Assembly (NCBI GenBank): GCA_000145985.1
Contig: CP002098.1
Location: 496,001 to 560,000, forward strand
Direction: 5' to 3'
DNA from: Ignisphaera aggregans DSM 17230
GTDB taxonomy: Archaea; Thermoproteota; Thermoprotei_A; Sulfolobales; Ignisphaeraceae
Length of the DNA: 64,000 nt
Part shown: positions 32,710 to 50,657 of the stretch, piece after piece
How the letters are laid out: every line of letters begins with the position of its first letter
Numbering within the stretch: position 1 is the first letter of the stretch
Program-made: the position numbers and the translations under genes
The notes under the pieces: model-generated
The model's database searches: none
Told to the model about the DNA's origin: nothing
Seen by the model: the letters and a program-made list of their open reading frames with translations, nothing else

Positions 32710-33105
32710 ATGAAGCTATACAAAGCTCTTAGAATTGTGGAGATGGCATTAGATAGATCTATACATATGATAGATGTTGTAACAGATATGGTCAAGAGCT
32801 TTATATGTAGGGTACATAGATTTGTTGTTGATAGACTTGGCTATATGGAGCTCGATATGATTGTTAGAGAGATATCTAGATATGGGGAAGGTGTATTGGA
32901 GCCAAGATATATAGATGTGTATAGCGTTATAGAAAAGCTGAAGGGTCTTGGATTTATGGAGCTCTATGTTGAGGATCTTGGTATTGGTTTTGAGATGGAG
33001 ATGTATAGCTATGAACTGAATAGATATGTTGATATTGTGTGGAGGTGTAAGGCATCTAGATGCAATCTTGTTGTGTCGTGGAGAACTATAGCTTTATATA
33101 GCTAG
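32710..33105 (+). CDS. Hypothetical protein, 131 residues
   Basis: Charged alpha/beta protein with no membrane segment or recognised motif. YVDIVWRCKASRCNLVVSWR near the C-terminus has a Cys pair (C-x4-C). Its stop overlaps the stop of the converging methyltransferase gene by four bases. I do not recognise the family. Confidence 0.6.
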   Translation: MKLYKALRIVEMALDRSIHMIDVVTDMVKSFICRVHRFVVDRLGYMELDMIVREISRYGEGVLEPRYIDVYSVIEKLKGLGFMELYVEDLGIGFEMEMYSYELNRYVDIVWRCKASRCNLVVSWRTIALYS

Positions 33106-33995
33106 ATCTTTTTTGCTATGAATCCCTGTGCCCTTGGGATCCACCTGACCTCATCGAAACCTGCTCTATACAACCTGTTCTTTATCCCCTTTAGAATATC
33201 TATATTTGTATGTCTACCTGGCTCACCTGTATAGTGAAAAAGTTTTCCTCCCCTTCTAAGAACTCTATATAGATCTCTGTAGAAGTCTAGGCTATATAGC
33301 TCTCCAGCTATATTGAATCTCGGTGGATCGTGTACTATAGCATCAAATGTCTCCTCATCGAAAAGCTTTATAACCTCTATAGCATTGCCCAAGATAATCC
33401 TAATTCTATTGTCCTCTAACCCCCTTGACCATGGATTCATAGATGCTATGAAAAGAACATTTGGATCTATCTCAACTGTGACAACCTCTCTTGCTCCCAG
33501 CATAGCTTCTGCTATAGCTGTATATCCAAGACCTGTACATATATCTAGAACTCTATAGCCATCCAATCTACCAAGGGTTTTCACCTTAAGCATAGAGTCT
33601 GTCCATGGATCTACATCAACAGTTCTATGCATCTGAATACCGTTTATCTCAAGAGTAGGTGCTTTATCTATAGCTATAGGCTTCAACTTATAGTACTTCC
33701 CACCATCATATAGATCAATTCTCTTGAGAACACCGTCTATAACCTTATATGCAAATCCCTCCTCAATACTATTGATATAATCTATATCTAGAAGAATACC
33801 ATCAATCTCTATACCCTTTCCCACTATATGTACATCTATATTCCTCAAGCCAAAGTCTACAGTAATTGTTATAGAGTTCAACCCCTTCTCTATAGCTCTC
33901 CTTATATCAACTGCATTCCAATATGTGAGTACAGCTCCCTCAATATATCTATACCTACTTTCAATCCCATTCATAGGAATCCGATTTATGTTCAT
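33102..33995 (-). CDS. Class I SAM-dependent methyltransferase
   Basis: 297 residues. Residues about 1-110 are a beta-rich N-terminal domain; RVLDICTGLGYTAIAEAMLG (about 147-166) is the SAM motif I, VVTVEIDPNVL motif II, and DAIVHDPPRFNIAGE (about 217-231) a DPPR catalytic-type loop, followed by YRVLRRGGKLFHYTGEP. The DPP(R/Y) motif suggests an N- or C5-nucleotide or spermidine-synthase-like methyltransferase on RNA; the substrate is open. An internal ATG at 33974 is a possible start. Confidence 0.82.
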   Translation of the reverse strand: MNINRIPMNGIESRYRYIEGAVLTYWNAVDIRRAIEKGLNSITITVDFGLRNIDVHIVGKGIEIDGILLDIDYINSIEEGFAYKVIDGVLKRIDLYDGGKYYKLKPIAIDKAPTLEINGIQMHRTVDVDPWTDSMLKVKTLGRLDGYRVLDICTGLGYTAIAEAMLGAREVVTVEIDPNVLFIASMNPWSRGLEDNRIRIILGNAIEVIKLFDEETFDAIVHDPPRFNIAGELYSLDFYRDLYRVLRRGGKLFHYTGEPGRHTNIDILKGIKNRLYRAGFDEVRWIPRAQGFIAKKI

Positions 33996-34064
33996 AGAGT
34001 TCTATGTATAAACACCTGATAGAGATTTAAAAAATCTTTTGCATATCATTGTAATAGACATTGG

Positions 34065-37360: not shown

Positions 37361-38155
37361 ATGGATATGGATATTGGTGTTATTGGTATTGGGAGAATGG
37401 GTAGAGCTATTATCAAAGGGTTTATCTCTGGTGGTATAGATCCAAAGAAGATCTATGTATATGATGTTTCACCCATGGCTATAGAGAGTATTAGGGGTAT
37501 GGGTGTCAATATATGTAGTAGTAATATCGAGGTTGTAAGGAGTTCTAATCTAGTGATTCTAGCTGTAAAACCTTCTCAGGTGAGAGGGGTTGCTGAAGAT
37601 ATATCGCGATATGTAGATGGGAAGATAGTTATATCTATAGCAGCATTCATACAGCTAAAAATGTTGGAGAAGATTCTCAGTGGTGCAAGAATCTATAGAG
37701 TTATGCCAAATATAGGTGTAGAGGTTAACACAGGTTTTATAGCAATAACACCTCCATCAGCTATGGATAGCAATATAGATAGACTTTTTAGACTTCTTGG
37801 AGAAGTTGTATGGGTCGATGAAGATGTTCTAGATCTCCTCACACTAATGTCAGCATCAACACCAGCTCTAATAGCTGAAATCGCCGATGCACTAATTCTC
37901 GCATCTCTAAAAGCAGGAATACCATATGATATCGCCAAGAAAGCTACAGCACATGTTTTACAAGGCGTTGGAAAACTACTCCTATACAGAGATACAAGTA
38001 GCATCAGAGACAGCGTTATAACACCTAGGGGTACAACCATAGAACTTATAGAGAGGATATATACAGAGGAAGCAAAGTCAAGACTCCTATCAGCACTTAT
38101 AAAAACCATAGAAAAATATCTAGAGCTTCTAGAAAAATATAAAAGCGGATCATAG
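37361..38155 (+). CDS. proC: Pyrroline-5-carboxylate reductase
   Basis: 264 residues. GVIGIGRMGRAIIKGFISGG (about 8-27) is the NAD(P) Rossmann loop; VILAVKPSQV (about 69) and ARIYRVMPNIGVEVNTG (about 111), and the terminal TPRGTTIELIERI (about 220) conform to ProC. Last step of proline synthesis. GTG at 37355 and ATG at 37367 are alternative starts. Confidence 0.94.
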   Translation: MDMDIGVIGIGRMGRAIIKGFISGGIDPKKIYVYDVSPMAIESIRGMGVNICSSNIEVVRSSNLVILAVKPSQVRGVAEDISRYVDGKIVISIAAFIQLKMLEKILSGARIYRVMPNIGVEVNTGFIAITPPSAMDSNIDRLFRLLGEVVWVDEDVLDLLTLMSASTPALIAEIADALILASLKAGIPYDIAKKATAHVLQGVGKLLLYRDTSSIRDSVITPRGTTIELIERIYTEEAKSRLLSALIKTIEKYLELLEKYKSGS

Positions 38156-38251
38156 CAAATTCATCTCTATTCACAAGATTTCTCCCGAACATAAATAACC
38201 TCCAACTCTATTTATAGGAATTCACACTATTTTGATAAGGCACTATACTCT

Positions 38252-38275
38252 CTTTCAATTCCATATATTGTATTC
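38252..38275 (-). repeat. Orphan CRISPR repeat
   Basis: Same 24-mer as array 1 on the same strand with one change: CTTTCAATTCC...ATTGTATTC instead of ...ATTGGATTC. It is 2.1 kb from the leader-distal repeat of array 1 and in register with it if the intervening cassette is removed. A diverged last repeat is typical of leader-distal ends. The 45 bp after it, up to about 38340, could be the remains of a spacer. Confidence 0.85.
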
Positions 38276-38350
38276 GTAGAAAATGCTTATTTAGATTACT
38301 ATGTATCGATGATTACAGAGCACTAGCACTAATTACAACAAGTGATGTTT

Positions 38351-38683
38351 ATGGTTTCTCAACACCGAGAACCTGCCCCATGTCTAAGACTGAATGACAA
38401 TGTAATCCTACTTCAGGATAAAGAGAGTGACATGCATCTCGTGTACAATGCTGTCTCTATGGATGTATTCAAAGTTAATGAGTTGGCATATGAATTGCTT
38501 AAATTCCTTGAATCTGCCTGTCGCTCGATTAGCGAACTGAGTGACTACTTCGAAGAGCTGGTGAGAGTGTATGAACACAGCGGCAACTATTTTACCTCAG
38601 ATATACATTCTGAAAACATATATTTTGAGCTGAAGCAATTCCCCTTCAAGCTTGGGATTGTGAAGTCTTATGACGAATGTTGA
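38351..38683 (+). CDS. PqqD-like protein (RiPP recognition element type)
   Basis: About 110 residues. The stretch NDNVILLQDKESDMHLVYNA, then MDVFKVNELAYELLKFLES and CRSISELSDYFEELVRVYE, matches the PqqD/RRE pattern (strands ending in N, then VxxLNxxA, then a winged helix with ISEL), which binds leader peptides of ribosomally made, modified peptides. No radical SAM enzyme lies next to it. GTG 38342 and ATG 38345 are further possible starts. Base composition is more GC-rich than the flanks, as is that of the neighbouring exporter. Confidence 0.66.
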   Translation: MVSQHREPAPCLRLNDNVILLQDKESDMHLVYNAVSMDVFKVNELAYELLKFLESACRSISELSDYFEELVRVYEHSGNYFTSDIHSENIYFELKQFPFKLGIVKSYDEC

Positions 38684-38730
38684 TAGATGCTGATAAGGTC
38701 TAGGCTTAGGTGTTGTAGGTAGGCCTAACG

Positions 38731-39939
38731 ATGAGTGCCGAGAGACCTATGTTTACTCTGTACGTAGCGCTATTGCTGACGTTTGTACTGACATTCCTGT
38801 ATAGCTCTTGGTCGCCATATATATCCCTAGTCGTTGTCAAGTTCAAGGGTGTAGATGTTGGCGGTTTAGCCGCAATACTGACAGCGATGAATCTAGGGCT
38901 CACCGTTGGCCCTGTGTTCTCGGCGATCTTGTCAAGGAGGGCCGGTTTACGCATCGCTCTACCCATTCTGCTAGTTCTGAAGAGCTTCTCCATCCTCGGC
39001 TGGATCGCAACTAAACGTCTAGAAATTCTCATAGCTCTCGGACTACTGTTTACAGTCTCGGCTTCAGGCATAGTGACGATCCTCACATACGTAGCATCAC
39101 GCCTGGGGTCTAGACATGGCAAGGCCTTCGGCTTATTCTACTCAGCAAGATCCGCAGCATTTGCTTTGGGCCCACTCTTTGGTGGAGTAGTGCTCTACTA
39201 CCATGGCTACAAGACGCTTGCAATGGTTGTCGGAGTCTTAGTGACGTGCTGTGCCTTTGCTATGGCTGCTCTAAGAATTCTTGGTGAGGATTCGAAGATC
39301 CCAGTCAGGAGCTCTGCACAGAGCTTATTCAGAGGTTTGAGGGGGCTACTGCATCTAAGGGCTGCTAGGGCTCTCGTCGTCACCTCTACGCTGATCAACT
39401 TCTCCAGCGCTGTTGCACAAGGGTATAGATCTGTCTATGCCTACGAATACCTGAAGATGAGTGAAGTGCTTCTGGGGGTCATGTACTCATTCGACGACTT
39501 TCTGAAGATCTTCCTGAACCCCTTCATAGGGGTCTTCGTGGATAGGTTCGGTTACGTCAGATCCTACCTCGCTGGAGTAGTGTTTTCATCGATGGTGGCA
39601 ATTCTATGGCCCTTCTCACCAAGTCCACTCATAGCAGTGGTGCTCTACACGATGATAAGCATATTCGCATCACTATACATTGTAGCAGAGAGTAGCGTTG
39701 TTGCAGCACTCGTACCCGAGGAATCGAGACTAGAAGTATATGCAGTAATTTCGTCGCTTAGCGAGGTATTCTCAGTAGTAGCTCCCACAGTGGGTGTAGC
39801 ACTATGGGAGCTAAGCCCTCGGACAGTCTTCGTCTTTGAGGGATTGCTTGGCATATGTGCTTCAATCATCCTTTACACATCTATAATGCTGAGAACCAAT
39901 CAGATAGAGAATCAGAACAGATATGCAGAGCCAAAGTGA
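38731..39939 (+). CDS. MFS transporter
   Basis: 402 residues, 12 predicted helices. Features include LTVGPVFSAILSRRAGLRIA (the GxxxDRxGRR-like loop 2-3 in degenerate form), FSARSAAFALGPLFGG (helix 5 motif) and IGVFVDRFGYVRSYLAGVV (loop 8-9). GC-rich codons (CTCGTC, ACGCTG, CTGAACC) contrast with the AT-rich host genes. It follows the PqqD-like gene by 47 bp on the same strand, so the pair is probably one acquired unit; it may export a modified peptide or a metabolite. Confidence 0.88.
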   Translation: MSAERPMFTLYVALLLTFVLTFLYSSWSPYISLVVVKFKGVDVGGLAAILTAMNLGLTVGPVFSAILSRRAGLRIALPILLVLKSFSILGWIATKRLEILIALGLLFTVSASGIVTILTYVASRLGSRHGKAFGLFYSARSAAFALGPLFGGVVLYYHGYKTLAMVVGVLVTCCAFAMAALRILGEDSKIPVRSSAQSLFRGLRGLLHLRAARALVVTSTLINFSSAVAQGYRSVYAYEYLKMSEVLLGVMYSFDDFLKIFLNPFIGVFVDRFGYVRSYLAGVVFSSMVAILWPFSPSPLIAVVLYTMISIFASLYIVAESSVVAALVPEESRLEVYAVISSLSEVFSVVAPTVGVALWELSPRTVFVFEGLLGICASIILYTSIMLRTNQIENQNRYAEPK

Positions 39940-40173
39940 TGAATAGTTACGTAGATAGGAAAGTCTTGTTAGCATTGATCCTAGGAATATAAAAAGCTAA
40001 GAAGTAGCCATTCTCACTTCCCAAGGCTTAATATCTGAAGTACCTAATACAAAGCTATCCTCAACATTTTCAGCATCTCTGCAATCCGTGCCCTAGGTAT
40101 TCCAAACTTCATCAGTCTTTTGAACACTCTTACTCCTCGAAGGCCTTGGCCTCTCTGACCGCTTGTCCATACA

Positions 40174-40387
40174 ATGCATGACGAGAAAAACAACTTTATA
40201 TTAGCTAAATCTCTAGCGGAGAGATTTGAAGAACTGGCTAGGAAGTTGAGGGAGATTAAAGAGCGTTAAGCAGGAGATCATTAGTACTCTAAAGCAGCTA
40301 CGTGAGGCTTTGAAACCCAGAGCTGTAGTGCTTGACCTTAACGGCACTCTCGTTGATTGCAGTGCTAGGTTTAAGAAGCGTAGAGTT
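40174..40387 (+). pseudogene. Broken gene fragment running into CRISPR array 1
   Basis: ATG 40174 opens MHDEKNNFILAKSLAERFEE then LARKLREIKER and TAA (40267-40269). In the next frame the text continues as SVKQEIISTLKQLREALKPR, AVVLDLNGTLVDCSARFKK up to the first CRISPR repeat at 40388. The VVLDLNGTLVD string resembles HAD motif I (DxDGTxxD) with Asn for the second Asp, but so short a match may be chance. The gene lacks its rest, replaced by the CRISPR repeats. The stretch 39940-40173 shows no other gene. Confidence 0.35.
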
Positions 40388-40964
40388 CTTTCAATTCCAT
40401 ATATTGGATTCATAGAGGTATATACGGGAAGATCCTTGTTTACGATATGTACTACAACTTTCAATTCCATATATTGGATTCTGAGCTTATAAAAAGAATT
40501 GTTACCGACATAGAGAGACATACTGACTTTCAATTCCATATATTGGATTCGGGAATATATGAACACAGCGGTATACCAATTTATGTGATTGATACACTTT
40601 CAATTCCATATATTGGATTCCTTAAGGAGAATGGCTTTGATCCAACAAGAACAATTGTATTCTACAACTTTCAATTCCATATATTGGATTCCACTAGGTT
40701 GGCGATTGCAGGCTCAATGATTGGAGAAATACGGGCTTTCAATTCCATATATTGGATTCAGCTAATCGAGGAAAAAGATTATGACGCAATGGCATTCATA
40801 AACTTTCAATTCCATATATTGGATTCAATGTTCTCGTTCTTTGGGAACTGGGGCGATCCAGATAAATACAATCTTTCAATTCCATATATTGGATTCGAAG
40901 GTAGAGCCATAATTGATGTAGCAATGGGTGGTTCAAAAGTCTTTCAATTCCATATATTGGATTC
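40388..40964 (-). CRISPR. CRISPR array 1, 9 repeats, 8 spacers
   Basis: Nine identical 24-nt repeats start at 40388, 40458, 40527, 40597, 40668, 40736, 40803, 40873 and 40941 (plus-strand form CTTTCAATTCC...TTGGATTC); spacers are 43-47 nt. Transcription is on the minus strand: the repeat ends ATTGAAAG and the leader lies at higher coordinates. Spacers show no repetition among themselves. The repeat differs from that of array 2 at two positions. No cas gene is adjacent. Confidence 0.97.
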
Positions 40965-41318
40965 CGGGTTATGGACTCTCTATTCTTTTCTTATCCTAGT
41001 CTCCATATATGGATTCAGAGTTCTATCTACAATAACTTGATAAAGATTTTTAAATTTTTTTGCAGATCATCAAAGGCTATATTCTTCATAAATCAATGGT
41101 GTGAAGGTTATGATCTGGCAATAGAGTTATTGCAAAGATGTCAACTCTATAGATATGTACACATTTATAGTAATGAAAGTGTATATATTCTCTAAATATG
41201 TAAAATGAGCTTATATAGAGGTTTATAAATATTGCATAGAGTCTATTGCAATGATCTGTATTTATAGAATGTGATGTAAGCCGGTTTATGATGGTAATAT
41301 GATGAATGGAATTGAAAG
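40965..41318 (-). promoter_or_regulatory. CRISPR leader of array 1
   Basis: About 350 bp, nearly identical in inverted form to the leader of array 2. It contains TTTTTAAA (about 41046), a TATA-like element on the minus strand, and at 41000-41016 a repeat-like motif GAATCCATATATGG followed by AGACTAGGATAAGAAAAGAA in both leaders. The homology between leaders runs to about 41318, where ATGGAATTGAAAG (41305-41317), a fragment of the repeat, is found. Confidence 0.75.
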
Positions 41319-41323
41319 GAAAG

Positions 41324-41812
41324 TTAGGGTATTAGTAGATAGAGTATTATGGTTGTTGATAGAAGTGTGATGAGTATGTTTATTGTTTTGTCGTTGTATG
41401 GTATTTTTAGTAGTGAATATCTCTTTTTGTTGAATGGCCAGAATAGATATACTCCTCCTGCTGTCAGCATGTCTAGTGCTATGTGTAACAATGCTATTGA
41501 GAAACATGTTGTTGCTATGACTAGGTGTGTCTCTGGCTCTAGTCCTATTCCTATGGATTCTATGGCTATTGTAATTGCTATTGATATTGCTATCGATATT
41601 ATTGTTGCTCCAATTATTGAGTGTGTCCATGGGGTTCTCCTACCACCTCTATGCCCATAGAGAAAATCTATAGCTGTGTTAATGATTATCGATAGTATTA
41701 GTGCTGTGAGAAACATTGTAAGTGTGTTGCCTAGGCTGTCTCTACCTATTGTCTTCATAAGTATTGTGAATGCTATAGCTGTCCCAGATATATTATGTGT
41801 TGATAGCTTCAT
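41324..41812 (-). CDS. YdjM-like membrane metal-dependent hydrolase (DUF457 type)
   Basis: 162 residues, about four helices. RTPWTHSIIG (about 57-66) and CFSIALLHIALDMLTAGGVY followed by LFWPFNKKRYSLLKIP fit the YdjM/LexA-regulated membrane hydrolase family, with His and Asp residues at the membrane face. It probably acts on a lipid or peptidoglycan-like substrate; no biochemical role is clear. Overlaps the moaC 3' end by 20 bp on the same strand. Confidence 0.82.
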   Translation of the reverse strand: MKLSTHNISGTAIAFTILMKTIGRDSLGNTLTMFLTALILSIIINTAIDFLYGHRGGRRTPWTHSIIGATIISIAISIAITIAIESIGIGLEPETHLVIATTCFSIALLHIALDMLTAGGVYLFWPFNKKRYSLLKIPYNDKTINILITLLSTTIILYLLIP

Positions 41813-50305: not shown

Positions 50306-50657
50306 CTTTCAATCCCATACATTAAATCACCACAGAATATATGCACACCACATTCTATCCATACAGACTATTGCAATAGACTCTATGCAATATTTATAAA
50401 CCTATATATAAGCTCATTTTACATATATAGAGAATGTATACACTCTAATTGTTGTCGAGGTGTACTCATTATTCTAGTTGACACAATTGCAATAACTCTA
50501 TTGCCACTCCATAGCCTTCACATCATTGATGGTTGAAGAATATAGCCTTTAATGATCTGCAAAAAGATTTTTAAATCTTAATCAAGTATTTATACATAAG
50601 ACTCTGAATCCATATATGGAGACTAGGATAAGAAAAGAATAGACGGGTCATAACCCG
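50306..50657 (+). promoter_or_regulatory. CRISPR leader of array 2
   Basis: Inverted near-copy of the array 1 leader; starts at a repeat-like CTTTCAATCCCATA (50306-50319). It shares blocks such as TAAACCTATATATAAGCTCA, TAGACTCTATGCAATATTTA and GACTAGGATAAGAAAAGAAT with it. TTTTTAAAT (about 50570-50578) is TATA-like on the transcribed strand, and GAATCCATATATGG (about 50607-50620) is the embedded repeat-like motif, about 40 bp before the first true repeat. Confidence 0.75.

Follow-up and report, generated by a model that had tools for sequence, protein, structure and literature searches.

A 2.1-kb, apparently foreign DNA segment in what looks like a single spacer position of a CRISPR array in Ignisphaera aggregans

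How does a stretch of more than two kilobases, carrying a complete transporter gene, come to lie between two repeats of a CRISPR array? The question is raised by a locus of the hot-spring archaeon Ignisphaera aggregans DSM 17230, whose genome is finished and of whose 1,875,953-bp chromosome the 64,000 nucleotides at positions 496001-560000 were analysed as one stretch (the window; coordinates refer to it unless stated to be those of the genome). The CRISPR elements concerned are the following.

40388..40964, minus strand: CRISPR array 1, nine perfect 24-nt repeats (crenarchaeal) and eight spacers of 43-47 nt
40965..41294, minus strand: CRISPR leader, defined by leader alignment and common to four other arrays of the array-1 repeat family
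41295..41318, plus strand: degenerate repeat (19/24), inverted, at the outer end of the array 1 leader
38252..38275, minus strand: orphan CRISPR repeat, crRNA sense GAATACAATATATGGAATTGAAAG, matching 23/24 on the strand and in the subtype of array 1

The leader of array 1, about 330 nt long in alignment with four other I. aggregans arrays, was placed on the right because the sequence past 40964 is common to other arrays. Transcription of array 1 thus runs on the minus strand, with the repeats at 40388 and 38252 both leader-distal. The inverted site at 41295-41318 is the best-scoring non-array repeat site of the window, and similar degenerate inverted repeats are found at the outer leader ends of array 2 (50306-50329) and of array 5. 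They stand about 330 nt from the first repeat and are possible ghosts of divergent partner arrays. The eight spacers of array 1 and their intervening repeats are also open in one frame (40447-41040, a 197-aa ORF; the spacers joined give 119 aa). This ORF was rejected as a real gene and taken as chance, since a search for relatives found none and, among random sets of eight real spacers, 2.9% also lack stops in at least one frame.

The repeat at 38252 is separated from the nearest array repeat (40388-40411) by 2112 nt, from 38276 to 40387. It had been described in the sequence-only reading as a diverged copy on the array strand, 2.1 kb from the leader-distal repeat, and this description holds. 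The possibility raised at that time, namely that the orphan was an unrelated chance match, is not the case, as 20 repeat-like matches were observed in the window against 0.00 expected (100 shuffles). Its variable core, AATATATGG, is that of the array-1 subtype, whereas the other I. aggregans arrays have the cores TATAAATGG, AATAAATGG, TATATATGG or TACAAATGG, with one other array also showing AATATATGG. Because an altered terminal repeat closes three of the four other arrays (547291, 562734, 1494977), and because the repeat at 40388 is perfect (24/24) while the orphan carries one change, 38252 looks like the original terminal repeat of array 1. On this simplest reading, the 2112 nt fill one spacer position and are bounded on both sides by array-1 repeats in the same orientation. 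A degenerate repeat at 38199-38222 (18/24) was also considered as an array member; the implied spacer would be only 29 nt, and the site is therefore probably a chance match or a TATA-like site.

The segment between the two repeats contains the following features.

38276..40387, no strand: oversized pseudo-spacer, apparently foreign DNA between the last two repeats, judged from composition and from its sole copy in 60 genomes
38342..38683, plus strand: 113-aa ORF, possibly PqqD/RRE-like (TIGR04353 E 0.019, below cut-off)
38731..39939, plus strand: intact gene for a 402-aa MFS transporter (PF07690 E 3.9e-27), of foreign composition
40174..40387, plus strand: 5' part of a gene for a HAD-type phosphatase, with a frameshift near 40265 and cut off at the repeat; PRAVVLDLNGTLVDCSARFKK aligned to genomes G137, G122 and G011

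The MFS assignment, made by profile comparison, is solid, with PF07690 scoring 95.5 bits against a gathering score of 33.4. GC over this gene is 0.48-0.53 against a genome value of 35.7% (PMC3035270); a GC-richer gene pair had been noticed at the outset. In the codon-usage comparison proposed with that observation, its GC3 is 0.52 against 0.295±0.053 in the ORFs of the window (z 4.3), and its codon score falls under that of all host ORFs. Additionally, its best relatives among 398 genomes of the phylum are just 20-28% identical, and the cassette was not found in the 10 congeners searched. Composition and distribution thus support an origin of the cassette outside the host lineage. A search of phages, plasmids, viral contigs and GTDB contigs for the donor of the MFS gene, of the small ORF, and of the ORFs in two shorter interruptions described below (602 and 411 nt) gave nothing convincing, with one short match of 17 aa between the small ORF and a viral contig.

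Of the pair proposed in the sequence-only reading, the MFS member stands, but the PqqD-like or RRE label of the 113-aa ORF is unproven. Its match to TIGR04353 reaches 15.9 bits where the cut-off is 35, and Pfam gave no match. The predicted fold has the order E-E-E-H-H, strands then helices, as in PqqD; its pLDDT is only 56, a model too poor to interpret, and the fold search returned no structural match. Elsewhere in the segment, a 44-aa stop-free stretch on the minus strand (40020-40170, CIVWTSGQRGQGLRGVRVFKRLMKFGIPRARIAEMLKMLRIALY) resembles by eye a piece of a helix-turn-helix protein and has no Pfam match.

The broken gene fragment seen earlier proved to be the frameshifted start of the phosphatase gene, and it allows the right end of the insert to be judged. 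PRAVVLDLNGTLVDCSARFKK is 60-63% identical over 19-20 aa to the homologues in G137 and G122, and 47% to that in G011; HAD motif I (hhhDxNGTLVD) is present in family context, and Pfam Hydrolase is matched at E 0.066 only. The relatives read on with VDSSARFAACLEKAGG (G137) and VDCSERLRRCLEESGG (G011). In the insert, codons can be aligned up to 40378, with the repeat beginning at 40388, so that any old spacer remnant on the right measures at most 9 nt.

The signs of a mobile element at the ends were looked for as well. Target-site duplications or att-like ends, proposed earlier as a check, did not materialize at the insert ends, where the CRISPR repeat is the sole direct repeat. Terminal inverted repeats were absent there (the longest shared inverted word has 8 nt), no transposase domain was found in the ORFs and no integrase domain among those of the cassette, and the window holds no tRNA.

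A gene cut at a repeat edge is also found elsewhere in this genome. At 565424-565447 (genome coordinates, here and in the rest of this paragraph) a full repeat runs straight into csa1 (PF06023; 565448-566206, locus L044), which is 62% identical to its homologue in G011 as far as SDV, the codon adjoining the repeat. The truncated csa1 is without the C-terminal PPSCPPTCPFRRAC segment and its cysteines. A second, longer csa1 homologue is located at 868220-868885. In the same neighbourhood, the array at 566690-567736 is followed by a 602-nt gap and then by an orphan repeat at 568339; this gap (567737-568338, L044) carries a 93-aa ORF and is the second oversized gap in the genome. The congener G007 has a leaderless array in which 411 nt, encoding a complete 103-aa ORF, lie between repeats (L075, 2218-2628 in locus coordinates). 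For both of these gaps, homology revealed neither foreign origin nor flush ends. At L075 a few in-frame codons and a stop come right after a repeat, which suggests an upstream gene cut at the repeat edge.

Arrangements of this kind are rare in the literature, where two comparable cases were found, both in Sulfolobus. In CRISPR_2 of S. islandicus LAL14/1, SiL-E1 consists of about 2 kb (1.9 kb) of pING1-like plasmid DNA that fills the space between two perfect repeats without an extra base at either end; its authors, aware of no earlier example, suggested that a protospacer had been processed wrongly or that recombination had taken place with matching spacers (PMC3718332). In locus F of S. solfataricus, an 899-bp pNOB8-like fragment lies between repeats (PMC4390879). 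As in SiL-E1, the I. aggregans insert is ORF-bearing, apparently foreign DNA of about 2 kb between two 24-nt crenarchaeal repeats, present in a single strain and with no identifiable attachment sites. SiL-E1, however, comes from pING1-like plasmids (82% identity), adjoins the repeats flush at both ends and has further spacer units after it, whereas for the I. aggregans insert no source was found, the right junction alone was judged, and the position is the very last of the array. The locus F fragment shares the placement of foreign DNA between two array repeats, but it is smaller, plasmid-derived and found in a leaderless array, while the I. aggregans insert has a complete transporter gene. 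The insert therefore fits the SiL-E1 kind of pseudo-spacer in architecture, though the fit is incomplete as the search found no donor.

Considering these observations together, the 2112 nt are read here as a giant pseudo-spacer captured between repeats, most likely by the adaptation machinery, an explanation that we hold with moderate confidence. A piece of a foreign replicon or genome with random ends, comprising the small ORF, the MFS gene and the first part of the HAD-phosphatase gene, would have been joined into array 1 at CRISPR repeat edges, taking one spacer position between 40388 and 38252. The most likely route would be integration of the fragment by the adaptation machinery untrimmed to size, in which case both ends should be flush and the flanking repeats would correspond to the normal repeat duplication of Cas1-Cas2 integration. 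The eight ordinary spacers would have been added afterwards on the leader side, and pre-crRNA processing would presumably still turn the pseudo-spacer's first ~45 nt into a guide, with a crRNA starting with ATTGAAAG-AACTCTACGCTTC. Joining at the edge is preferred because the HAD end lies 0-9 nt from its repeat, the csa1 end lies 0 nt from its own, and the literature provides a case. Against capture, the donor search gave no sequence to compare with the left junction at 38276, an insertion at random close to the edge of a spacer would end up as near-flush as the right junction (0-9 nt) in about 1 in 5 cases, and recombination between arrays, seen in the mosaic repeat subtypes described below, occurs in this genome too. 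Moreover, spacer acquisition is not known to give kilobase spacers in the laboratory.

Among the routes considered, we place capture by the adaptation machinery at the edges of repeats first, homologous recombination second and insertion into an existing spacer third. According to the second of these, an invader (a plasmid or virus) or a further array would have recombined with matching spacers or repeats of array 1, so that element DNA took the place of the DNA between two repeats, with the same repeat-flush outcome; it is rather unlikely here, though it is the strongest competitor. Recombination was one of the origins proposed for SiL-E1 by its authors (PMC3718332), and it would account for flush edges too. 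In addition, repeat subtypes are mosaic in the cluster at 565353-568362 (genome coordinates), and recombination between arrays therefore does occur in I. aggregans. However, the 65 I. aggregans spacers match the cassette over at most 14 nt. The longest such match, between an array-1 spacer and the small ORF (38570-38583), was dismissed as background, as matches of at least 14 nt were also obtained with 2 of 60 stretches drawn at random from the window. Recombination through matching spacers is weakened accordingly, since no spacer matches the insert above background.

In the sequence-only reading, a foreign cassette had entered the leader-distal spacer and split the array; the form considered here is a mobile or illegitimately recombined cassette that landed in an ordinary leader-distal spacer and split it. 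Two parts of the earlier claim stand, namely that the array extends to 38252 and that the cassette is apparently foreign; the entry into a spacer does not fare as well, given a right-hand remnant of at most 9 nt, and is considered less probable than recombination. The architecture fits it, about 35 nt of the old spacer could persist at 38276-38310, and insertion of an IS element (ISC1359) into CRISPR spacers of S. solfataricus is known experimentally (PMC4390879). The ISC1359 insertion is similar to the present case in that an array is interrupted by a gene-bearing insert. Unlike it, the I. aggregans insert has no transposase, no terminal inverted repeats and no target-site duplication other than the CRISPR repeats, and the array loci of Sulfolobales have been described as otherwise resistant or intractable to transposition (PMC4390879). 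Capture is thus preferred over insertion into a spacer owing to the short right remnant, the lack of inverted ends and duplications, the precedents of SiL-E1 and locus F, and the csa1 gene cut at a repeat.

It is improbable that the locus combines two unrelated relics, with the orphan being a shrunken separate array and the intervening genes having always been there. Solitary repeats do exist elsewhere in the genus, in the congeners G007 and G001, but a recognisable leader was seen at 4 of the 5 read in congeners, and the orphan at 38252 is without leader sequence. It also continues the line of array 1 on that array's strand, belongs to the array-1 subtype and has a change of the terminal type, and the intervening genes appear foreign to the genus. 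At the congener loci examined, no array was found at the same place, these congeners being too distant for an empty-site comparison (45-58% identical at P5CR); in G003, TldD/PmbA and P5CR are adjacent but P5CR is inverted, and no array of the array-1 family is present. A function of the orphan repeat itself on a foreign cassette, as a solitary-repeat RNA anti-CRISPR or as the guide of a CRISPR-regulated toxin-antitoxin, is very improbable despite the Racr-type solitary repeats that exist in phages (PMC10651486), since the repeat hardly differs from that of the host array, with which it is in line, and there is no Rfam match at 37900-41500, no toxin gene and no adjoining phage gene set.

At three loci of G007 and G001 (L076 2105-2544, L078 2036 and L082 1543), a leader and a single repeat with no spacers lie beside genes. 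The repeat at L078 directly adjoins a gene's ATG, and at L076 two leader-repeat units stand back to back, facing outward. Such leader-repeat units may be reused as promoters. In the window, a leader-like sequence with a degenerate repeat (GATTCCTATGAATGGGATTGAAAG) at 33958-34060 forms the upstream region and the first codons of the minus-strand gene at 33102-33995.

The 2112-nt and 602-nt segments of I. aggregans, the 411-nt segment of G007 and the csa1 gene cut at a repeat lead to the tentative suggestion that repeat edges in Ignisphaera repeatedly receive, through the adaptation machinery, long DNA of gene size or chromosomal ends, so that the arrays might serve both as a route for the horizontal uptake of working genes and as rearrangement breakpoints. 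The locus adds a third case of a pseudo-spacer, outside Sulfolobus, accompanied by shorter examples from its own genome and from the genus, and by a gene cut at a repeat edge. It makes testable the question of whether Cas1-Cas2 integrates unprocessed kilobase DNA or invaders recombine with matching spacers. If integration by Cas1-Cas2 is true, CRISPR arrays can capture whole genes, and with 2.1 kb of DNA in place of a 45-nt spacer, the immune system may sometimes store them.
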